NCBI GenBank assembly: GCA_029834535.1 | Contig: JAQMWT010000373.1 | Location: 177,793-241,792 of the forward strand | DNA: 64,000 nt | From: Chrysophaeum taylorii | Taxonomy: Eukaryota > Sar > Pelagophyceae > Pelagomonadales > Pelagomonadaceae | Direction of reading: 5' to 3' | Shown: one piece after another, positions 10,212-22,833 of the stretch | How the letters are laid out: each line of letters begins with the position of its first letter | Position numbering within the stretch: position 1 is the stretch's first letter | Notes under the pieces: generated by a model | Database searches by the model: none | The model's input: only the letters and a program-made list of their open reading frames with translations | What the model was told of the DNA's origin: nothing | Made by a program: the position numbers and the translations under genes

Positions 10212-11478
10212 ATCTACTTATTCTTACGCCGCGAAACTTTCTGTTTACGTTACTTTTATTGAGTTTTACATATCATGACGTGCATATACTTCCTAATATG
10301 AGCGGTAAGCCTCGACGCGAACCTGTGTTATCGGCTATCGGTTTCGTGCGTCACAAAAACGTTGCTGCGGCGAAAAATATCTTTGTTCGCCGAAATAAAA
10401 TTTAGTAACGCCACCATCATCAGTTTTTTTATCCTTTGCACAACAAGAGATTTCGTTGTTCTTAATAATAACTGGGAGGGAGCATCATCACAGCATATTT
10501 GAGCGTAAACTCAAAAGTTATTATTATTATTATTATTATTATTATTGTTAGAGGGCGGCGCTCATCAAATGGCGGGGGTGAGAGCCGTCGAGCTGACAGG
10601 AGAGTGGGAGAAGGACGTTGACGCGAGCCGATTATAGGGGACGGCCTGGCGCTAGCCTAACCGTCCAAGGGCGCCGCCAGGGACCCGGTGGCCGAGAGAC
10701 GTAGGGGCCGTGTTGCCGTACGCCTGTAAGCGTCTTCGCGCTCCCTGAAGTGCGTATAGGATTATTATTAGGGTGTCATCGTTGTGACTTCCTGGATGGG
10801 CGACACGATGGCGGCCTGGAGGTCGCCGCGTCGATCCCTGGGTCGATAGGTCGCTATTATGCGGGCTATGAGCAACACCCGGGCACTTTTGGAATGGATG
10901 GGCGCTGCGAAACAGGGGAACGAATCTTAAAGAAGAAATACAGCGCAAAGAGAGTTTTTTTTATCTACCAATGGGGAGGCAGGCGTTCTAAGTACTAGAA
11001 GGGGCGACTCTTTTTCGAAGGAAAATGCGAATGGAAGCAAAAAAAGAAAATGGAAGGCGTTGCTACGGTGAAAGGCACAAGAAGAAGACGGTGTCGTATC
11101 GTTGCGGAAAATGATCTCTCGCGATGGAGATGGCAGCATCGTATCTGTACGCCGATAGTATCATTCCTATATTGCATAGAAATGAATGTTCCCAGACAGA
11201 CACCAAGGCAAATTTGGTCGCAAATTTTGTTCGCGGGATCAAACAACACGATTTCACGCGACCAATTTGGGAAAGACCACAATGGCTTGGATATGCGGGA
11301 CATCCATCCACCCATCCAACCAACCTTGGAGGTCGAACTGGTCGTTTCCTTGGATTTTAACATAAGGAGCGAACGAAGTCCGTGAGACGCGGCGGTCTTA
11401 ATGTCCGTCAAGCAGCGGCCGTGAGCGGTCTTCTGCTCAAAACGGAAGCGTCCAGACTAGAAATGGAGCTGACAAGCT
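10212..11478. other. intergenic region with a dispersed repeat; no convincing gene
   Basis: This contains a (TTA)n tract at about 10519-10549 and the dispersed repeat listed separately. Short frames at 10995-11411 have no recognisable content. It ends at the left LTR of the Copia element. Confidence 0.5.
10503..10745 (+). repeat. dispersed repeat family member (with 39.0, 40.1, 41.1 and 48.1 kb)
   Basis: It begins GTAAACTCAAAAG, is interrupted by the TTA tract, and continues with GGCGGGGGTGAGAGC, GAGAGTGGG, CGCTAGCCTAACCG, GCCGCCAGGGACCCGG and GGCCGAGAGACGTAG. The reverse complement of about 47985-48190 follows the same order. Its first third matches the segments near 39012-39120, 40060-40170 and 41110-41215. 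It is non-coding and its mobility class is unknown. Confidence 0.65.
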
Positions 11479-11570
11479 GGCTGTCCTCGATTAAGAGACA
11501 GATTCGATGACAGACTACCACTGTTCTCACGCTCTGCTGAAGGGTAACACAGTTGTGATTACTGTTCTCT
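11479..11570 (+). repeat. left LTR of the Copia-methyltransferase element (approximate)
   Basis: It starts GGCTGTCCTC and ends GATTACTGTTCTCT. The last 62 bp are identical to the right copy at 20594-20655. The outer edge is uncertain. Confidence 0.7.
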
Positions 11571-11590
11571 GGGTATTGGGCACCAGTTCC

Positions 11591-11606
11591 GGTATCAGCA
11601 GAGCCT
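11591..11606 (+). promoter_or_regulatory. possible primer-binding site
   Basis: GGTATCAGCAGAGCC resembles the Copia initiator-Met primer site TGGTATCAGAGCC with a 3-bp insertion. It lies just inside the left LTR, where a PBS belongs. Confidence 0.4.
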
Positions 11607-11659
11607 CATGATTTCCAGACAAGCCCCGCTCACTGACGTTCCTGAACCCAAGCAACAAA

Positions 11660-13840
11660 ATGCCAACCACTCAAGAACTCCAGAAGGAGATAAGAGAACA
11701 AGAAGCTCGCTTAGAAGCCAAGTACCAAAGAGACATGCAACAAAAAAAGCTCGAGCGTACGAAGCTCGGCATAAACAAGAGATGCAAGACCAAGAAACTC
11801 GCTCGATGGCTCAATTAAGCGCGTTGGCCACCCAAGTGCAAGCAACGCAAGCACCACCACCTGCCGTCGCTGCTGCGGCTCCGCCTCCCACTCCGGCTCA
11901 ACAAGATCCCAAGACTAAAGTTAACACCTTTAGTGACCCACCAAGTGCCGTTCTCAAGTCCATGGACTCGGCGCAAGTCACACCCCAAATGCTTTCGTTT
12001 CGCGTCATGCAATTGTTCGTCGAACGTCTGATGCCTGAAACAGGTATAACAACTCAGTACTTCCTACAGGGCTTGCTTCTACACGTGGGAATCCGTCTTG
12101 CGCGGATCTATTGATCTCGCTGACACTCTCCTAAGCCACTGTATCGACGAATACGACAAGGACCCCGACAACCACTCTACCGCCGGGAAGACGCAAGATT
12201 TCCAAGGCCGTTACGTCTACTACAAGGCTGTCTACCGCAAGTTCGGCTAGCACTTCCTGGACAACGTCTACAAGCCAAAACTCCAAAAGAACTTAAAGAT
12301 AAAGACAAAAACCAAACCGATATGACAAAAGGCAAGTTACGTCTACTACAAGGCTGTCTACCGCAAGTTCGGCTAGCACTTCCTGGACAACGTCTACAAG
12401 CCAAAACTCCAAAAGAACTTAAAGATAAAGACAAAAACCAAACCGATATGACAAAAGGCAAGTTGTATCCAATTACTCAACCCCATCTCCAAGGAAAAGA
12501 AGCCGACTTCATCGTATATCTCCGCGAGACTGTACACCCCCTATTTCGCCGTTTCCTACATGCCGGTAGCGACTCCGTCAAGCACCCAGCATACGACGAA
12601 ATCGATGCACTCGGATCTTCCTGTCTCCGATAGGACTCGAATTTGTGCTTCAAGTTCGCCTCGCACTCGACAAGCACACGGGCCAGAACCACATCCACCA
12701 CGCGCATTATGTTTACAATGCCTTTCTGGACACGCCGTTCAACCCCGAAATCCATGAGCCAGCTCACTACATCGACTACATGCGTCATGTCCAGCAAAAA
12801 CTGCGCCAGATCACCACGGACGCTTCTCTCCAACTTCCCGACGACAAGATCCTCGAAGAAATTCACCAAATTCTCCGCTTCGAGTAACCCCCAAGCTTGC
12901 TTGACTCCCGCGCCCCAACACACATCAAGGGCTTTGCACGTCTTGCTAACTGTCTGCGCAATCCCAACGATTCGCTGTTACTCGACGAAGACAAGGAAGC
13001 CATCCACCACCTTCCTAAGCTCATCGCTCGCATCACCGTCATTTTAACGTTTGAGCGCAACTTTTGGGCTCACCACAAGCCTCGCCCAACTCTCAACTTC
13101 AAGCCTTTGCGCTTCGTTACGGACTTTGGTCGTCTGCAAACAAAGGACAAAGACAACCCTCGCTTTCGCTCCCGCCGTCATGGTCTCCACCTCACCGAAG
13201 ACGATGTCATGACACCTCTCCCTCTGAAGACGAACACCCCACCGGACCCCGTTGAAGACACCGACCCCGTCGCTGTTTTTCTCATGGAGGCCAATCTTGA
13301 TCACGAGGAAGACAATGACCTTATTCGCCAACTACACGCCTACCGCAAGAAGCAAATTTCGCGGCACGTCAAAAAGCGCCCTCCAGGCAAAAAGCCTCCT
13401 AATCCTCGCTCCCCGTCTTACTACGACGTCAATGACAGTCCTAAGCCCAAGGCCACCCCTGTCACCCCACCGAAGAACAAGCACCGTCCCCGCGCTCCTC
13501 CTGTCACCCCTGCCAAACGCGAGCACCCACATCTTCGCAAGGCCACCTTCCCCACACAACCTCATCCACCCAAACCATGCACTCCCGACCAGCGCTTCAA
13601 GGTCCCCCTTCGTGAAGTCCGTCGCAAGCTCCAAACCATACGGAACCTTAGCCAAGCCGGTCGCCAACATACGTCCAGCTCCGAGCGCATGAACAAGCTA
13701 ATCAACTCATCACCACGATTTACTATGAGATACTTCTTTCCGAAGCCGAAAACGACGCCGCCGAATTCCTCCAGATGTTAACGTCCAATCCCCAAGACGA
13801 TCAACCTGATGAGGGCGAAGCCGAAACTGATGAATAAGAC
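11660..13840 (+). pseudogene. gag-like region of the Copia-methyltransferase element
   Basis: The region begins at ATG 11660 with a charged helical segment (MPTTQELQKEIREQEARLEA). It continues across frame changes through a Pro/Ala linker (11870-11910) and a basic Pro/Lys-rich part (13370-13650), ending in an acidic tail near 13750-13835. No CCHC zinc knuckle was found. Assignment as gag rests on position between the LTR and the protease and on composition. It has at least five frame changes plus the tandem duplication at 12210-12461, so it cannot make one protein. Confidence 0.55.
12210..12461 (+). repeat. 126-bp tandem duplication inside gag
   Basis: Units 12210-12335 and 12336-12461 are essentially identical, starting GTTACGTCTACTACAAGGC. 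The length is a multiple of 3, but each unit carries an in-frame TAG after CGCAAGTTCGGC, so it duplicated after or while the gene was decaying. Confidence 0.9.
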
Positions 13841-14159
13841 GACGACGGACACCTCGGCTTCTACGACGACAACGGTCAGATAAACCTCTACGACGACACC
13901 ATTCCCGAAACCAACGATGAAGATGACTCCGCCGAAGACTACGCCAAACGTCACAGTGACTACATGCGTGCTCTCCACCAGAGTCGGCTTTTTCGCTGAT
14001 GGTTGCCGACGACGCCTGTGCCGCCAACCACACCTTACTTCATCAGGCACCAAACCTCCAGATGACGAATTTTCCGACCTCATCAACTATTTCCACAAGA
14101 GTCGCAGATTTTCTTTGTGCAGTTTACACCCCAGAAAAGACCTCAAAGAAGACTAGCTC

Positions 14160-14400
14160 ACTGCACGGGTGCAATGGCCCCGGCACTGAAACCTCATTGA
14201 TTGTCGGTGGCGCATCTTTTTGCTTTACGCGCACAATTCAAAATTTTGTTCCCGAGACCATACGCCGAATTCCCGAACACACCATTCATATGGGACGAGG
14301 CACCCTCACCAGCCACTTCATCGGTGTTAAACCGTTGTATCTGCAGGCTGCAGGTCTCTCTTCAAAGGATACAAAAGACAAAACCGGTTACGCTTTTTTT
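14160..14400 (+). pseudogene. retropepsin relic with catalytic Asp lost
   Basis: In phase 1, residues LIVGGASFCFTRTIQNF (14197 onward), followed about 15 residues later by HTIHMGRGTL, match the retropepsin pattern D-S/T-G-A-S...F...G.G.L. The Asp position is Val (GTC at 14203-14205). It sits between the gag-like part and the methyltransferase. The fold assignment is by short motif only. Confidence 0.45.
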
Positions 14401-14889
14401 TTCTCGTATTTATGGTCGTCCCGCAATTCAGGTAAGGTCTTCGAGTTATCGCGACATCTCAGCTCAATGCTCTGCATGTACAAGCAACAGACCCGCCACT
14501 GCCCCACGACCCTTACCTTTATGAGCTCCTAAAGTCATCAACCTCAGACCCCCACAATTACGCAACACTTCTAGGAAAGACCGCCGTCGTACTTGCCACT
14601 CGCAAGCCTAACGGCCTGTTGTCCCTGCCATCCCATCCAAACAAACATTCGCCACTGTGGTCAGCTTTCACACAAGAAAACGAATGTCACTCAAGGATGA
14701 GATTGCACACATCACACAGCATGTCGCAAAGACACGCTCACAATCGCACACGCTTGACTTCGCAAAGTTACAAAATCATTCACTGTATCTCAACAAACTG
14801 CTCAACCTCCAATATCCTGTCGTCCACTACGCCTTCAATGGCTCAGCAGACCTCTCTAAGCAGTCACAAAAACCCCTCTGCTCAAAACA

Positions 14890-16500
14890 GCCATTATTGC
14901 AGGTGGACTCCACCAGGAAGGTTTCGACACTTTTCGCAAACGATTCGACAAACGCCTTACTGTCGTGGTCACCTGCGAAATCAACGATATCCTTCGCACC
15001 CGTGCGCAACAACTCTTCCCGCATGCCCAGCACTATGCGGACCTCAGAAAACTCAATGCCGCACTCCAAACCGGCAAAATACGACTCCCTACATTCGACC
15101 TGGCAGTTTTCACATTGCCCTGCCAACATCTGAGTGTAATGCAAGAATACGACGGCTATGCCACTCCGGTCACCGCCGACCTTTTCGTCAAAGAACAAAT
15201 CCGCTTCGCTCGTTGCACGCTCCCGACCTATGCCATTGTCGAGAACGTACCTCCCAACCCCCGAACTCACCACGAGTATGCTCAACTCGCCACAGGCTCG
15301 CCACAGACTATAAGCGCTTTGGCTACTTCCGCCACTCCGGCGTCTACAATGCCTCTGCCTTTGGTGACGTCATCAGCAAGACACGCTATCTCGCTGTGTA
15401 TGCCCGGCTCACCGGCTACAACCTCGAGAAAACCGCCTCTCCTTGGTTAACCTCGCCTCCGAGCATGGTTCATCTTCTGGACCCCAGTCACACCATCCCT
15501 GACGATCTATGGATCGCCAAACCCGCCCTTCTTGGTACCGTGCCCCGCTCCACATTGGACTACTACCAACACAAGGCTACCTACTCCTACAAGCCCGCCA
15601 ACACCTCGAAACTCTCGATTTCCGAGAATGCCCGCCCGCATCTGCGAAATGCTCGCACGTCTCACCAAGCCCTTCACGGATCTCGGTCTAGATGCCGACG
15701 GCACCCCCTACGCCACAATGGCGTCCATTTCCCACCTCCTGGTTTTCACGCTCCTGCACAACCATTTGTCGCAACACCCCACTCTCGCCGCTTGGAACAC
15801 CATCCGCTGTTTTCATGCCTCAGAGTCTCAATGTGCTTACCATTTTGATGGAGCCATCACCGGCACCGCCGCTACTGCCGTCGCATGTGGATACTTCTCG
15901 CGCGCCTCCCTCACACAACATTCCAGGCCCCCTCAGAATTTGGACTGTTCCCAACAACCCGCAGTCTTCTCCCCAACAAGCACTCCTTTTCCCTGGATGT
16001 TCCCAAAGGGCACCGCCTTTCTGGTCGTCGCTTACACCACCTCCTTGGCCGCCGCTCACAGCTGTTCGCGCCCGTCCACTGGGTCCACTATATGAATCGT
16101 TCGCATCCTGGCTTTGCCGCCGCGATTGACTCACAAAGGCGAATTGCTCTCGATGACCCCAAGGGACTCCTAATGTCCAAAGCACATCCCACTTACGCGG
16201 ACTATGTCGGCCACATCGGAGACACGCTTCAGAAGAGCACCAAATGCTATGCTACTCGGTCACTGGCCCATACCCCACCAACACGAGCTACTCCAATGCC
16301 TTGCTGCTGATCTCTCCAGACCACATTCGCTACGCGACCCTCAACGAAATCGCAAAATTTGGACACCACTCGGTAAACCCGGAACTGCTCCGACTGTTCA
16401 AACAGCACCCGCCGTACTTCGCGTTTAAGGCACTGGCCAACGCCGTCCCGCACCACGTGTTGCAGGCAAAGTACAGCGCTGTCCTCGCATTCCACGAATC
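14890..16500 (+). pseudogene. DNA (cytosine-5) methyltransferase domain within the Copia element
   Basis: Motifs of the C5-methyltransferase family appear in canonical order. A VVVTCEIND segment (about 14959-14985) fits motif II, the cofactor-contact strand with its acidic residue. FTLPCQHLSV with catalytic Pro-Cys-Gln at 15118-15126 is motif IV. VENVPP with Glu-Asn-Val at 15241-15249 is motif VI; it is in the same frame and 41 codons after PCQ, the usual spacing. After a frame change, YNASAFGDVISKTRYLAVYA (about 15340-15400) fits motifs VII-VIII. A long variable stretch fits a target-recognition region. RYATLNEIAKFG (about 16330) fits motif IX, and KALANAVPHHVL (16427-16462) is a good motif X. 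Three or more frame changes make this copy inactive. Enzyme identity is well supported; target preference cannot be read. Confidence 0.8.
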
Positions 16501-16649
16501 GCACCACCACGTGAACCTTCACGTCGAATGGGCCACAATACGCCATGGCATCCCCAGCCCCGGAGACATCAACCAGGTTGCAGAATTCTTCTCGGCCATC
16601 TCCAACCGTCTCTTAGCAGAGGAAGACCTGAACCTCACCTCCCTCTTCA

Positions 16650-18500
16650 ATGCCGTTGCAGATGCTCACCATGATGCGATCCGCAAACCAAGCAAATCGA
16701 CAAGCCTCGAGACGCTTCTTGCCGAGGCAACCGTTGCTAAAATCCGAGTCGACAAGCGACCCAGCCCCCCCCAGCGCTTCGACTGCCGCTCTGCCTCCCT
16801 TGCACCAGCCCGGCACCACTCAGCACGCCAAAAGAGTGCTTTTGGTCACTCGCTGGCACCGCATACACCACCAGCAACCAGAGATTCTTCGCCGCACGAT
16901 TGCCGCTAATGTGACGAATCTCCGCCCAGGTGATGATCGGTATCTGCAAGACTGCAGTGAATGCAAGCGCTGCCAATCGCATATAAGCTTCAGTCACAAA
17001 AACAATTCCTGGTCACAGGATGAACTGGCCTATGCTCCTGGCCAACACCTCCACATGGACGTGTCATACCCGAGCATCCGCAAGTGCTACGGTGGATTTC
17101 GCTATATCATGCACTTCGTGTGTATTATCTCAGCACACAAATGGGTCTATTTCCCGCGGAAATTAGACGCACAGGATGTTCTGGCCGGCATCCTCTATGT
17201 GGTCAATGTGATTAAAGTCGAATTCGATGTCCATGTGAAGATCATATCCTCTGACGCATTCTTAACTTTTCGCTCTGAAGCCTTCCACCCTCTCAAGGTG
17301 CAGCTTGGTCTCCAATTCCAATTCCTTGGTCGCCACCTCCACCAGCGGAACTTTGCTGAAAACATTATCAAGGAAAACACCCGAGGCACCGTAGTTCGTC
17401 TCCTCAACCTTCGCAGTGTACGCATCGAAGGAAAGTCTATTGCCGCTGAGTATTATCACCCATTTGCTCTCCTGCATAAGATCCAAGCCGACAACCAGCG
17501 CTCTCATGGACTGCCATCGCGCACACACATGCCATGCACCGTTCCCCGGCGTATCATGTCACCCATGGCAAAGCTCTTGAAGCTTCTCCCCTTTGGCGAG
17601 CCTGTCTTTTTTGTCTACCCTCAAACTCAGAAGCTGGAACCCTCCAGCGTCTCCGCCTCTTACTTTCATAGTAACAACTATCTCCCGAACCTCCCCCGAA
17701 GAACGGACAGATTTATCCGAGATGTTCACAGCTCTATCTTGCTTGTACATCAAGGGCGATATGGAAAAATCGTCACCTCAAACGACTTTCATGTCGACGC
17801 AGACATGCCAGTCAACTGTAACAAGGAGATCGAACGGATCAAAGCACTCGCACAGATCCCATCAAAGGCACGACAAGAGGACCCGCTACCAGCTATAAGC
17901 GAACAGCAAATGCCGAAAGTTAGACAGGAATCAAAAAATGAGGGCGAGACTCACGAAGACGAGCACGATGATAAACCTAGCGCTGACGATGAACACGAAG
18001 AACTGGATCCAACTCCCGCTGCTGATTCAAGTCCCGTCAGCGACGCGACACCTGAACAGGATTTTTCGTTCATCAACCGGCCACCTCCGCCGGATGGTAG
18101 CATTCCGATGCCCAAACGAAAAGATCGCCTAGAGATTGTTCTCGACGATTCAGGTTTTACTCCAGTTCTCGTGCATCGCAACCAAAGCGGCAAACTCAAA
18201 GCAGATCTCAATGACGAGCGCGGATTTCGCATCCCTAAGGATCAACTCTATATCGTGAAACGTGTTGACGATGCAAAACTCTTCACCAGACGCATCATCG
18301 CCTCAGAGTATGGTCGCAACTGGAAATACCAGCAGGAGCAATCCACGGCTCACGCCACAGCCAACATGTCCAGCACATTGATGTTCCCCTCATCAGTGTC
18401 AGCGCTCTGCACCAGGACCACGCCGCCAGCATCGCCACTGCTCTCAACATTCGAAGAGATGCTAAGCCGCCTAATGATGTCCCGAAAGGATGTCTCCTAG
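16650..18500 (+). CDS. Copia integrase (longest open frame of the element)
   Basis: A 616-codon open frame covers the integrase. An HHCC-type zinc motif is suggested by HRIHHQQ (about 16858-16878) and CSECKRCQ (about 16957-16980). The catalytic core shows LHMDVSYP (Asp codon 17058-17060), ISSDAF (Asp 17253-17255) and FAENI (Glu 17358-17360), giving D...D-34-E spacing. The C-terminal part is acidic (GETHEDEHDDKPSADDEHEE) and then ends near PKDQLYIVKR. The first 200 residues overlap the end of the methyltransferase in another frame, so the real domain starts near 16840. The second catalytic region is intact, but the neighbouring domains are broken, so the product is unlikely to function. Confidence 0.75.
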   Translation: MPLQMLTMMRSANQANRQASRRFLPRQPLLKSESTSDPAPPSASTAALPPLHQPGTTQHAKRVLLVTRWHRIHHQQPEILRRTIAANVTNLRPGDDRYLQDCSECKRCQSHISFSHKNNSWSQDELAYAPGQHLHMDVSYPSIRKCYGGFRYIMHFVCIISAHKWVYFPRKLDAQDVLAGILYVVNVIKVEFDVHVKIISSDAFLTFRSEAFHPLKVQLGLQFQFLGRHLHQRNFAENIIKENTRGTVVRLLNLRSVRIEGKSIAAEYYHPFALLHKIQADNQRSHGLPSRTHMPCTVPRRIMSPMAKLLKLLPFGEPVFFVYPQTQKLEPSSVSASYFHSNNYLPNLPRRTDRFIRDVHSSILLVHQGRYGKIVTSNDFHVDADMPVNCNKEIERIKALAQIPSKARQEDPLPAISEQQMPKVRQESKNEGETHEDEHDDKPSADDEHEELDPTPAADSSPVSDATPEQDFSFINRPPPPDGSIPMPKRKDRLEIVLDDSGFTPVLVHRNQSGKLKADLNDERGFRIPKDQLYIVKRVDDAKLFTRRIIASEYGRNWKYQQEQSTAHATANMSSTLMFPSSVSALCTRTTPPASPLLSTFEEMLSRLMMSRKDVS

Positions 18501-19877
18501 CAAGTACCACACAAGACTATGGTATCATGGGCGGCACCGCACTGGATTTGCAGAGAGAAACCGACGCGGTTGTACGTTGACTTTTAGGAAGCCATACCAC
18601 TCATATGTGTTGGTTGACCACCTTGACAACGACAACTCTGTTCTCGAGAACTACGTGTGCCATGACGAAATGTCACCGGCAGAGTACTATGCGCGTCAAT
18701 GGAATCAAGAATTCTGTTGTATGGGCTCCTCTCTTTTGTGGGACATCTCCGCGCATCAACACTACCATCTATCTTCTCGTCACAGGCATGCCTTCATGCA
18801 TGATTCTGGCGAACTCGGACACCTCTTCCTAAGTCAAGGTGATCCGAATCAAGATATTCTACACGAAGTCATGGACTATGATTTGCAGCACATCGATCAC
18901 GTCGTGTTACAGCTTGTGACCACTGATGATATTGTCTATGAGCCTGAAAAGATTGTCGAACTCAAAGGACTCAGCGAAGAAGATAAGTTAAAGCATATCG
19001 CTTCGATTCGCAAGGAAATTGAGGGATTGTGCTCCAATGGTGTCTTCAAGCTTGAGCCTTTACCGCCAGACCGTTCGTCTATCTCGACGAAGCTCGTGCT
19101 GAAGATCAAGTATTTTGCTGACGGCACTCCAGACCGCTATAAAGCTCGTCTAGTCGCCCGAGGTTTCTTGGCACGTGTAGGCATTGACTTTTATGCCACA
19201 TCCTCCCCAACCGCAATGCTCGCTACCAACCGGCTATACTGCTCGCCATCGCTGTGAAGCACAAGCTCCCGGTCGCGCACGCGGACATTCCTCAGGCATT
19301 CGTCCAATCGGCACTCGATCGCCCAGTATGGATCGACTTTCCTCGAGGAATACGTGTCTCGCAAAACCCTGTCCAGCAGATACAGAAGCACCATCCGGAG
19401 TCGAAGCTCGCTCTCCGACTCGTCAAGGCTCTCTATGGCCTCAAACAGTCAGCTTTGTTGTGGAACATTAAGCTCGACTCACTTCTTCGACAACATGAGT
19501 TCGAACACTCACAGGTCGATACCTGCCTCTATATCAATTGGGATCGACCTATCAACAAATGGGTATTACTATCCGTTTCAGTCGATGACCTATTGATCAC
19601 TGGTACCAACACTGCCAAAATTGCGTCTCTTCGCACCGCTCTGGAGACCGAATATGGCAAGGGTACATGGCATGGCAACATCAGATCCTTTATTGGCATC
19701 GATGTCCACTACAATGTCTCCGCTGGTCATCTCACTATGAATGTTTCATCGAAGATCAACAAGATGCTTGCTGAGCATAAGCTCAACCTACATAGCCTAG
19801 GCGTCCCCTATTCGGACATCCTCGTCCAAAAATCCTCTACTAAGCTTCTCTCTCCGACTTGGCTACTACTACCTTAG
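18490..19877 (+). pseudogene. Copia reverse transcriptase, one frameshift
   Basis: Frames 18490-19257 and 19254-19877 together encode a Copia RT. LKGLSEEDKLKHIASIRKE is followed by DRYKARLVARGF, then ADIPQAFVQSALDRPVWIDFP (first catalytic Asp region), RLVKALYGLKQSALLWN, and the SVDDLLITGT active site at 19578-19607 (YVDD in typical members, here Ser-Val-Asp-Asp). The frame change at about 19240 lies between VARGF and ADIPQAF. It synthesises element cDNA in live relatives. Confidence 0.85.
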
Positions 19878-19884
19878 ACGTATT

Positions 19885-20494
19885 ATGCCAAAACTTCCAC
19901 TTTCTATTGTCGCACCAGCATTTATTTATTTGTCTGTAACATGTCGGCCGGACATCACCACCTTGTGCAACAAATGCTGCAAAGGGATGCACAACCCCGA
20001 CCAAACACACCTTCTGCACTTATATGTTTTACTTCGCTACTTAAAGGGCACTCCGAATGACTCCCTTGACTATTCATCCGACAGCCCGTCTATTACCCCC
20101 TTTATTCAGCATCTGATCGCTCGCTATCCTGAACTGCATCACCTTCGTTCACCTATTATCTGTTTTACTGATGCAAGCTTTGCTGATCGTTCTGACCCTC
20201 GCTTACGATCCAATTCTGGTGCGTGTATATTCATTCGTCTTTGGCAATCTCGTATTTTGGTCTAGCAAACGACAGACTCTCACTGCCAAGAGCACCATGG
20301 AAGCTGAACTCATCGCCGCCAGCGCAGCCGCTGATGAATGTCACTGGTTCTATAAGCTTTTCTCAGCTCACCCCTATCTGTTTTCGTGTGATCAAGCTCA
20401 CGCTATCCCATTGCTTATTGACAACGCTAGCGCACTACATGTCGCGCTAATCATCCTAAAGTCACCTCCTATTCTAGGGTTAGAACTCACTTAA
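19885..20494 (+). pseudogene. RNase H of the Copia-methyltransferase element
   Basis: SVTCRPDIT is followed by CFTDASFADRSDPRLRSNSG (catalytic Asp region, about 20160-20220). After a frame change near 20230 comes FWSSKRQTLTAKSTMEAEL (about 20256-20310), the classical Copia RNase H core. RPDIT marks the RT-RNase H connection. Confidence 0.8.
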
Positions 20495-20559
20495 CTACTT
20501 TGCCACGTTTAGTAGTAGTAAGGATTTATAAGAAAACGCTGTGTTATTTAGTCACACCG

Positions 20560-20655
20560 GCTGTCCTCCCCTAGTTTAGGAGACAGGATCGAGGACAGAC
20601 TACCACTGTTCTCACGCTCTGCTGAAGGGTAACACAGTTGTGATTACTGTTCTCT
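20560..20655 (+). repeat. right LTR of the Copia-methyltransferase element (approximate)
   Basis: This is the matching copy of 11479-11570, with 62 identical bases at 20594-20655. From 20656 to 20874 no gene is seen. Confidence 0.7.
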
Positions 20656-20874
20656 ACAAGCCTTCGCCGATCTGGACCACCACCACTAGAGTACGAAGGA
20701 GTGACTTCGGCGGGAGACCTTCAAAACACGCAGACCGACGGTTCGGGAGTATACGCCCTACGTAGTAGCGCGGGACATCGTCGTCCTTGCGGTAATTATT
20801 TGTCAAAGAGACGCCTATTTTTAAAATGCCGCCAAGGTCCTGATGATCAGATCAATTCGGTACGGCTCTCGAAT

Positions 20875-22542
20875 TCAGAGCTCGTCGTCACCGTCGGGTG
20901 GGGTCGTCCGGAGGAGGAGGCGATCCAGGGCGGGGGCGTATCTTGGGCCGAGATGAGCGAGCTTGTCGTGGTGGCGCGGCGGGAGCCAGGCGAAGAGAGA
21001 ATCTAGGCGAGGTCCGATATCGGGGGCAAGAGCCTCGATGGTCTGGGGGGTTGCCCGGGCGAAGAGGCGGTCCCCGAGCATTGCGAGGTTGGAATCTCCG
21101 ACGGCTGCTCTGATTGTCGCGGCCAGCGCCGCTCCCAGCTGGTCCTGCGGGAGGTCGTCGACGGCCGGGGCGGCGGCGGCCGCGGCCATCGAGAGTGCCT
21201 TGCGGTCGTCTTCGTCCGCGGGCGGTGCCGAGGCGACGTAGTCTAGCAAGGCGGCAACGGCGTCGCGACGCGTCTGGCCTTCGAGCTTCGGGAGCGCTAC
21301 GCCGAGGGCAGAACACGCGTTGCGGCGAACTTTTCGCGAAGCGAACGAATCCGAAAGGATTTCGCGAGCGTAATCCACAAGCTGCCTGGCGAAGGCGGGA
21401 TCGTCGGCGAGGTAGCCCGCGGCGCGGAGGGCGCCGGCGGCCACCTTGGGCGGCCCTTTGAGCGCGTCCGCGACGGCGCTTCGCAGCCTCTCGCACGGCC
21501 TGACTTTCGCGACGTTGCCTATCGCGAACACCGCTTGCGCTTGCGCCTTTGGGTGTTGCTTTGGGGCCGCGAGCGCATTTATGACCTCGGCCGGCATTCC
21601 GCCGCGTTGTTCTACGAGACGCGGCGCGGCGACGCCGAGGGCGCGACAGGCGGCGGCGGCCGCGTCCGGGTCTCGGTCGAGGGCGACGGCCGCGACGGCC
21701 CTCACCAGATCTTCTTCGTCATCACAATCCAGCTCGAAGAGCGCCGCGGCCACTCGACACCCGGCGGCTCGGAGCTTGCGGTCCGAGTGTCGGCAATACC
21801 TCGCGGCCGTCGCCGGCTGCCGAAGCTCGGGGTGAGTCGAGCACCCCCTTTCCAGCACTTTAGCCGACGCGAGCGAAGGCGGGCCTATTCTCGTGATGGG
21901 CGGCAACGCGTGAAACAGCAGCGCCGCCGCCAGGACCTCGGCGACCGCGGGGTCATCGGCGGCGCGCCCGACGAGGGCGGGGGCGTGTTTACGGAGCGCG
22001 GGGGTCGCTGCTTTTCGACACGAATCCTGCTCCAAAACGACGCGGAGAACGCGCCACTCGCATGCATCAAAGGCCGCGCCAATGTGCCTGGCGAGGTGCG
22101 GAGTGTCCGAGGGGCACCGCTCGCACAGCGCCGCGAGGGCCTCGGGCGCGAGACGACCTTCGATCAATCGATCGACGACGCGTCTGTGAGCTGGAGGAGC
22201 GACGGCCGTCAAGGACTTTGGCGGAGCCCGGACCGCCGCCGCCAGCACGCTCCAGGCCTCTTCCCGCTGGAGCGTCGGGAGCAGCGTGGGCCACGACGCG
22301 AACACGAGCTGCGGCTTGGCGCCGCAGAACGCGACCACGAACTCCTCGAACCCCTCGGGAAGACCACCCTCCACGACTACGAGTCGCCCAAAGTCGGGGG
22401 CGACCTCCTCGACCATCAACGCCATCGCCCCGTATTCGCGCCGGTGCGCGACGCACCACGCGGCCGCCTCGCGACGGGCCCCCGGGGGTGCCCAAGGCAG
22501 CAACCGCAGCGTCTTTGAGATGCGAGTCGGAGGAGGAGACAT
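20875..22542 (-). CDS. HEAT/armadillo-type helical repeat protein
   Basis: The 555-residue frame starts at ATG 22540-22542 (an open extension upstream begins with GTG and was rejected). It is almost entirely alpha-helical, with Ala/Arg/Leu-rich pairs of helices about 35-40 residues apart, such as AQAVFAIGNVAKVRPCERLR, AGALRAAGYLADDPAFARQL and RRNACSALGVALPKLEG. That is the pattern of HEAT or armadillo repeats, scaffolds for protein-protein contact. I see no catalytic motif, signal peptide or membrane segment. Third-position G/C is extreme, as in the other host genes. The precise family is not recognised. Confidence 0.7.
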   Translation of the reverse strand: MSPPPTRISKTLRLLPWAPPGARREAAAWCVAHRREYGAMALMVEEVAPDFGRLVVVEGGLPEGFEEFVVAFCGAKPQLVFASWPTLLPTLQREEAWSVLAAAVRAPPKSLTAVAPPAHRRVVDRLIEGRLAPEALAALCERCPSDTPHLARHIGAAFDACEWRVLRVVLEQDSCRKAATPALRKHAPALVGRAADDPAVAEVLAAALLFHALPPITRIGPPSLASAKVLERGCSTHPELRQPATAARYCRHSDRKLRAAGCRVAAALFELDCDDEEDLVRAVAAVALDRDPDAAAAACRALGVAAPRLVEQRGGMPAEVINALAAPKQHPKAQAQAVFAIGNVAKVRPCERLRSAVADALKGPPKVAAGALRAAGYLADDPAFARQLVDYAREILSDSFASRKVRRNACSALGVALPKLEGQTRRDAVAALLDYVASAPPADEDDRKALSMAAAAAAPAVDDLPQDQLGAALAATIRAAVGDSNLAMLGDRLFARATPQTIEALAPDIGPRLDSLFAWLPPRHHDKLAHLGPRYAPALDRLLLRTTPPDGDDEL

Positions 22543-22833
22543 CCTAACCGCCGCCGCCGCGTCGTATAACGGACTAAACCAACGGATGATCCTGAAACTG
22601 TGGCCGAGATCACACACCTGCTGCGCGAGATCAACAACAACGTATATTCATTCTGTGCCACAGGGAAAAGCTTGGTTGTTTTCGCCGCCGCTCACTTGTG
22701 AAGAAGAACCTGGTGGCGGTGTGGAAGCATCGAGTGGGAGTAAGCGTGAAACTGCCCTGAGCTAGTAGTAGCTGCCTGGTTCCGCTTGGCCAAAGTCGTC
22801 GGTCGTCAACCCTTAGTCCGTCCGTCCTGAGAG

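Follow-up and report, generated by a model that had tools for sequence, protein, structure and literature searches.

Can a retrotransposon carry, as a regular part of its own polyprotein, an enzyme of the very kind that is turned against it? C5-methylation of cytosine is a classic host weapon against transposons, and elements that carry the enzyme therefore invert the expected logic. The question is raised by a decayed Copia retrotransposon at 11477-20655 of the window (the whole stretch of DNA that was analysed, 64,000 nucleotides), in which a C5-cytosine methyltransferase (MTase) domain stands in the order protease, MTase, integrase. We favour, with a probability of about 0.6, the reading that a Ty1/Copia lineage of a photosynthetic alga captured a C5-MTase, has kept it as a domain of pol, and uses it to methylate either its own cDNA or the target DNA. 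The copies in this genome display the domain order, the multicopy linkage of MTase and element, long open frames, conserved catalytic motifs and sequence constraint. A Copia element with its own DNA-methylating enzyme suggests a parasite that marks DNA chemically during its life cycle.

The window element

The element is bounded by two direct repeats, a 5′ LTR of 94 bp (11477..11570, plus strand) and a 3′ LTR of 99 bp (20557..20655, plus strand), whose edges were placed by sequence reading. They share an 86-nt core, 93% identical between the two ends and repeated 9,085 bp apart; a gapped alignment of 97 columns gives 89.7% identity. The initial annotation had described matching LTRs of 92-96 bp: the matching pair stands, but the lengths now read 94 and 99 bp. 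TG...CA ends are absent from both. Outside the LTRs, sequence reading finds ACAAG on either side (11472..11476 and 20656..20660). As the final base of the LTR is ambiguous, the target-site duplication measures 4-5 bp. The window copy thus has the LTRs and the target duplication of about 5 bp that are seen in Ty1/Copia elements (Pseudoviridae). Adjoining the element, on the minus strand at 20875-22647, is a 590-aa open frame that resembles a host gene.

The leader and a frameshifted gag-like region occupy 11571..13999 (plus strand, as are all the coding parts below). Its gag identity is positional, upstream of pol, and the 577-aa frame at the same position in a sister copy, L010, has no Pfam match. 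Tandem repeats occur in this part of the element: there is a perfect 126-bp duplication in the window gag region (12210-12461) and, in L010, a 218-bp tandem pair at 2457-2891. At 13997..14001 the sequence TGATG, found as a strict pattern, joins the stop of the upstream frame (TGA) to an overlapping ATG in the pol frame, which would be the pol start. Preceded by a GGCTTTTTCGC stretch, the overlap recurs under the same strict pattern in 12 of the 18 sister loci of ten kb. This overlap of the upstream frame and pol suggests that pol may be expressed by stop-start re-initiation or by a frameshift.

The first part of pol is a broken retropepsin-like region (13999..14857), located by tblastn with a piece of L010 and having no Pfam match. 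It reads LIVGGAS where L010 and another sister copy, L011, read LIDGGAS, which we take to be the retropepsin motif; because of this difference, the earlier description of a protease "relic" to the left of the MTase was right.

The MTase domain follows at 14878..16699, located by its profile match, by tblastn to the L010 MTase and by sequence motifs. PCQ (ccc tgc caa, 15118-15126) and ENV (gag aac gta, 15241-15249) lie in one frame, 41 codons apart, exactly as first reported. Segments resembling motifs VIII and X had also been noted downstream; both are present, but neither is in the PCQ/ENV frame. The motif VIII-like stretch YNASAFGDVISKTRYLAV, at about 15342-15407, is in a second frame, and ALANAVP (16430-16450) is in a third. 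Because the motifs are spread over three frames, the window copy must be frameshifted; their order is real. The PF00145 match that the initial annotation asked for is there: in the window it lies in the frame 14860-15447 and, at 21.4 bits (E 2e-4), just misses the curated Pfam cut-off of 22; sister copies score above that cut-off.

The integrase reported to the right of the MTase is indeed there, at 16761..17888, and is 96.5% identical to the integrase region of L010. We recognise in it what we take to be the HHCC and DDE-type core motifs; by profile, the match to rve in the L010 frame is weak and falls below the cut-off (E 0.0054). A Copia-type reverse transcriptase (RVT_2) follows in two frames at 18491..19877, with PF07727 scores of 32.5 and 91.1 bits; the RVT_2 score of L011 is 97.9 bits. 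In the window as well as in sister copies, the integrase lies upstream of the reverse transcriptase, which is the Ty1/Copia order of pol. The last coding part (19878..20494), found by eye and matching no family, contains KRQTLTAKSTMEAELIAAS, presumably an RNase H-like motif.

A methyltransferase kept in many copies

The genome that holds the window comprises 70.8 Mb in 697 contigs. It includes a 103.6-kb contig with an algal rubisco, whose nearest PDB chains are diatom enzymes of form ID, the red-lineage type. The initial annotation had called for a search for intact copies, and two were found: a single open frame runs for 1952 aa in L010 (contig C96) and for 1868 aa in L011 (contig C314). Their translations contain, in order, the protease-like LIDGGAS, the MTase, the integrase and the reverse transcriptase, an order shared by every fetched copy whose locus spans those parts. 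In L010 the pol frame matches PF00145 with 32.3 bits (E 9.5e-8), above the cut-off, and the MTase part alone with 34.4 bits; its RVT_2 match is 47.9 bits, the locus ending within the reverse transcriptase. The L011 pol frame matches PF00145 with 29.9 bits. Upstream of the 5′ LTR of L010 (2060-2080) there is a sequence resembling the one that precedes the 3′ LTR in the window, which suggests that L010 may consist of two tandem elements with one common LTR.

These sister loci had been selected by their MTase match. As an unbiased test of linkage, the genome was searched with the L010 integrase, which lies directly downstream of the MTase. At least 109 matches were obtained (105 of 863 candidates scored), and 84 of them start within the first 25 residues. 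In 82 of these 84 places the integrase is preceded by an MTase: 55 have a listed MTase match within 2.8 kb upstream, and to these are added the window copy, eight of eight places that were read, and 18 of a further 20 that were read. As for the other two, one retains a displaced remnant of the MTase, some 1.5 kb upstream, and the other a stub made up of the last 14 MTase residues. Among the 84 integrase places with an N-end there is thus no clean copy of the element without an MTase; such a copy would have spoken against the first description. The structure given in that description, in which a Copia lineage holds a C5-MTase as a constant part between its protease and integrase, is borne out by the PF00145 matches together with the 82 of 84 integrase places. 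A search with the N-end of the MTase gave at least 151 matches (150 of 449 candidates scored), and the 150 listed merge into 144 loci. Two contig pairs, C10/C297 and C25/C521, show near-identical matches at near-identical positions; this is assembly redundancy, which slightly inflates the copy counts.

Eighteen MTase stretches were available for alignment, of which 12 were long enough and had no internal stop (four had stops and two were short). PF00145 matches 12/12 of the aligned copies, and the other families give one match at E 0.28. Two PHROGs families of DNA methyltransferases also match the L010 domain, with E-values of 9.7e-9 and 1.1e-7. We reject a chance pair of motifs or a misread frame in view of the PF00145 matches in the window, L010, L011 and all 12 aligned copies, and a separately bounded MTase insertion in view of the 82 of 84 integrase places. 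Only the sub-threshold score of the window frame taken alone would fit the notion that the MTase is a passenger, carried on its own bounded insertion or recognised through chance similarity. This notion is highly improbable, as the LTRs and target-site duplication bound the element outside the MTase, the linkage and the profile matches recur from copy to copy, and the domain evolves with a dN/dS of 0.20.

The constraint was measured by codon comparison of copies. At dS>0.25 the median dN/dS is 0.201 for the MTase (322 pairs), 0.197 for the protease (260 pairs), 0.115 for the integrase (96 pairs) and 0.125 for the reverse transcriptase (49 pairs), values that are inflated by neutral decay after insertion and come from non-independent pairs. 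Over all MTase pairs with dS>0.02, the median is 0.239, the maximum is 0.83 and 433 of 465 pairs are below 0.5. The constraint on the MTase is therefore about that on the protease and somewhat weaker than that on integrase and reverse transcriptase. Within the domain (pairs with dS>0.1), the N-part with motifs I-VIII gives 0.141, the middle 0.27 and the C-part 0.238.

In the MTase alignments, motifs IV (PCQ), VI (ENV), VIII and X are invariant or nearly so; no variation is seen in PCQ, in ENV or in the residues FGD, K and RYLAV of motif VIII. Motif I, the SAM-binding motif of C5-MTases, is canonically F-x-G-x-G(-G). At its position the family reads IIAGGLHQEGF, degenerate with respect to the canonical form and nearly invariant across the aligned copies. 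This noncanonical stretch is evidently constrained, and the use of SAM may be altered or lost. The interval between motifs VIII and IX spans about 300 residues, which is longer than the usual target-recognition domain of C5-MTases. It is conceivable that catalysis has been lost and that the domain persists as a module by which the integrase binds DNA or is targeted. The degenerate motif I and the long, constrained motif VIII-IX region (dN/dS 0.27) would fit such a module; we consider it unlikely, however, because the aligned copies conserve PCQ and ENV and, among the parts measured, the N-part that holds these two motifs shows the strongest constraint (0.141).

Similarity to sequences from other genomes is weak. 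A profile of the N-part matches 13 distinct sequences in the PDB, all weakly (E 0.0045 to 1): nine are HhaI, one is HaeIII and three are named cytosine-specific methyltransferase. Among them is 4dkj, which we take to be the bacterial MpeI. No chain named DNMT is among the N-part profile matches at E<=10. A profile of the whole domain matches one of the 13 sequences (E 0.013) and an unrelated chain, and a single-sequence search of the PDB returns no MTase and one unrelated chance match. These weak profile matches, to HhaI, HaeIII and cytosine-specific enzymes and to no DNMT, argue weakly against a DNMT3 origin. The L010 and L011 frames match no MTase family in NCBIfam; no relative was seen among the roughly 8,000 candidates scored in each search of 5.8 billion proteins, nor in a scan of viral contigs. 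The predicted structure of the window MTase piece has a mean pLDDT of 33 and offers no usable fold.

Possible roles of the enzyme

A role in methylating the element's own cDNA or its target site is likely. All copies form one family, and a single capture would account for the MTase in them. The enzyme would be produced as part of the pol polyprotein and carried into the particle. There it could methylate cytosines of the new double-stranded cDNA; alternatively, joined or adjacent to the integrase, it could methylate the DNA of the integration site. Methylation would then label the new copy as 'self', or shield it from host nucleases or editing. The initial annotation had suggested, with reserve, that the enzyme may have methylated the element's cDNA or countered silencing by the host. 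Analogy supports this mechanism, as the MTases of SymbioDIRS-Dnmt3 elements methylate CG de novo in yeast, according to the account given in the relevant passages of PMC5890265.

If the MTase left lasting CpG marks on its own family, a trace might be expected in the copies. MTase-Copia shows no more CpG decay than the other Copia elements that this genome contains, and so gives no support for a self-methylation peculiar to the family. Comparing C/T differences at CpG with those at all other cytosines gives a ratio of 1.23 in MTase-Copia (335 aligned segments) and 1.46 in Copia elements without the domain, hereafter plain Copia (15 segments), with differences counted pairwise among copies and so not as independent events. 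The observed/expected ratio of CpG is 1.03 in MTase-Copia (median of 19 copies) as against 0.84-0.97 in eight plain Copia loci. By sequence context, the largest excesses over plain Copia are 1.49 (GCT) and 1.45 (TCC), plain Copia offering only about 1,000 sites for each context, and there is no clear signal of context-specific decay. The lack of extra CpG decay therefore argues against strong CpG self-methylation with lasting effect; this result covers lasting CpG marks and leaves transient methylation, methylation in other contexts and RNA methylation untouched. Relative to the DNA around them both kinds of Copia are poor in CpG, seven 3-kb pieces of the window outside the element having ratios of 1.16-1.44; this could reflect host methylation of the elements, or composition. 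In the corresponding passages of PMC5890265, SymbioLINE elements are CpG-depleted relative to LINEs without a DNMT, whereas MTase-Copia is not depleted relative to other Copia.

The lack of a family-specific CpG trace would also fit an enzyme that methylates RNA, its substrate being either the element's genomic RNA or the primer tRNA; some C5-MTase relatives (DNMT2) do methylate tRNA. Copia particles contain both RNA and DNA, and the position of the MTase therefore does not favour RNA. None of the PDB sequences matched by profile, all of them weak matches, is named DNMT2; the names they bear are HhaI, HaeIII and cytosine-specific methyltransferase. Methylation of RNA seems doubtful to us for the present family, though it has been raised as a possibility for SymbioLINE in the part of PMC5890265 that discusses these elements.

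Yet another possibility is that the main effect of the elements falls on the host genome. A genome search with PF00145 gave at least 57 matches (123 of 474 candidates scored), 55 of which are MTase-Copia and two of which are host genes. One host gene, on contig C621 (L009 2968-9225), combines an MTase with SNF2 in a single open frame of 2086 aa, the architecture of DNMT5; the other, on contig C634 (L019 4822-5901), is DNMT2, its best PDB match being 1g55 (E 3.9e-39). Among the matches listed, from these 123 of 474 candidates, there is no non-Copia match besides DNMT2 and DNMT5. We reject the idea that the element's MTase is a duplicated host gene near a transposon, profile comparison of the Copia MTase with DNMT5 or DNMT2 not being significant.

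DNMT5 is reportedly a maintenance-type enzyme, from work in Cryptococcus. One may imagine that the MTase-Copia, with at least 144 MTase loci, supplies the only de novo cytosine methyltransferase of the genome and that the host DNMT5 maintains the parasite-written marks, copying them at replication. The preponderance of MTase-Copia among the PF00145 matches is in favour of this idea, which nevertheless appears quite unlikely: an exon-by-exon search can miss intron-split host DNMTs, and the CpG ratios of the seven flanking pieces give no sign of heavy CG methylation. We thus return to methylation of the element's own cDNA or target DNA as the preferred reading. In a small genome (70.8 Mb), with DNMT2 and DNMT5 the only host enzymes among the matches listed, the role of a retroelement MTase is testable.

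Comparison with other elements

C5-MTases have been described in LINE and DIRS elements of Symbiodinium and in a Gypsy element of Klebsormidium (De Mendoza et al. 2018, PMC5890265), in passages that also describe the Copia elements of Symbiodinium as abundant and devoid of any DNMT domain. As in those retrotransposons, the MTase of the present family lies within the coding region of the element and is under purifying selection; with RVT_2 and the Copia order of domains, the family stands outside the reported LINE, DIRS and Gypsy families. The closest parallel is KnitGypsy-Dnmt3 of Klebsormidium nitens, which, as presented in the pertinent sections of PMC5890265, is likewise a multicopy LTR retrotransposon with a C5-MTase in its pol polyprotein under purifying selection. 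It is, however, a Ty3/Gypsy element with a DNMT3, whereas the window family is Copia and its PDB profile matches include no DNMT-named chain. SymbioDIRS-Dnmt3 and SymbioLINE-Dnmt are also high-copy retroelements with C5-MTases, carried in pol by the DIRS types, but they are DIRS (with a tyrosine recombinase) and LINE elements and not Copia (PMC5890265, same sections). Certain DIRS elements bear a Dam-like adenine methyltransferase (PMC5890265 and PMC6338049, in the passages on DIRS); this too is a DNA methyltransferase borne by a retroelement, but it is an adenine enzyme, structurally unrelated according to PMC5890265.

Other sources, taken for the portions that deal with transposons, mention related cases. 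Gypsy and DIRS are named as C5-MTase carriers in PMC6338049, and an Ectocarpus Sola1 DNA transposon with a methyltransferase of the N4-cytosine or N6-adenine type appears in PMC12477816. PMC12344493 speaks, citing De Mendoza et al. 2018, of some DNMT3 members embedded in 'LTR Copia and DIRS' elements; in that passage 'LTR Copia' may be a slip for Gypsy or a reference to further cases. The corresponding portions of PMC9998398 and PMC11453091 contain no Copia case. In the openly licensed literature we found no described Copia case with a C5-MTase. The present family appears to represent a further case of capture, seemingly independent of the others and within the Copia superfamily; the MTase captured looks unlike DNMT3. 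A Copia case beyond LINE, DIRS and Gypsy points to a recurring benefit of MTase capture.

Other Copia elements are abundant in the same genome, and the best 150 of 1670 RVT_2 candidates were scored. They share the Copia reverse transcriptase (RVT_2) with the MTase-carrying family, but in the eight plain loci fetched it is 41-44% identical to that of L010 over about 125 residues. By coordinates, 148 of these best 150 RVT_2 places have no MTase of the MTase-Copia type 2.5-9 kb upstream among the matches listed. The two exceptions are C58, a member of MTase-Copia by its spacing and integrase, and C613, in which the spacing is longer. Dozens of the best 150 places have exactly the same score, 148.1 bits, an apparent sign that a family lacking the MTase has multiplied recently.
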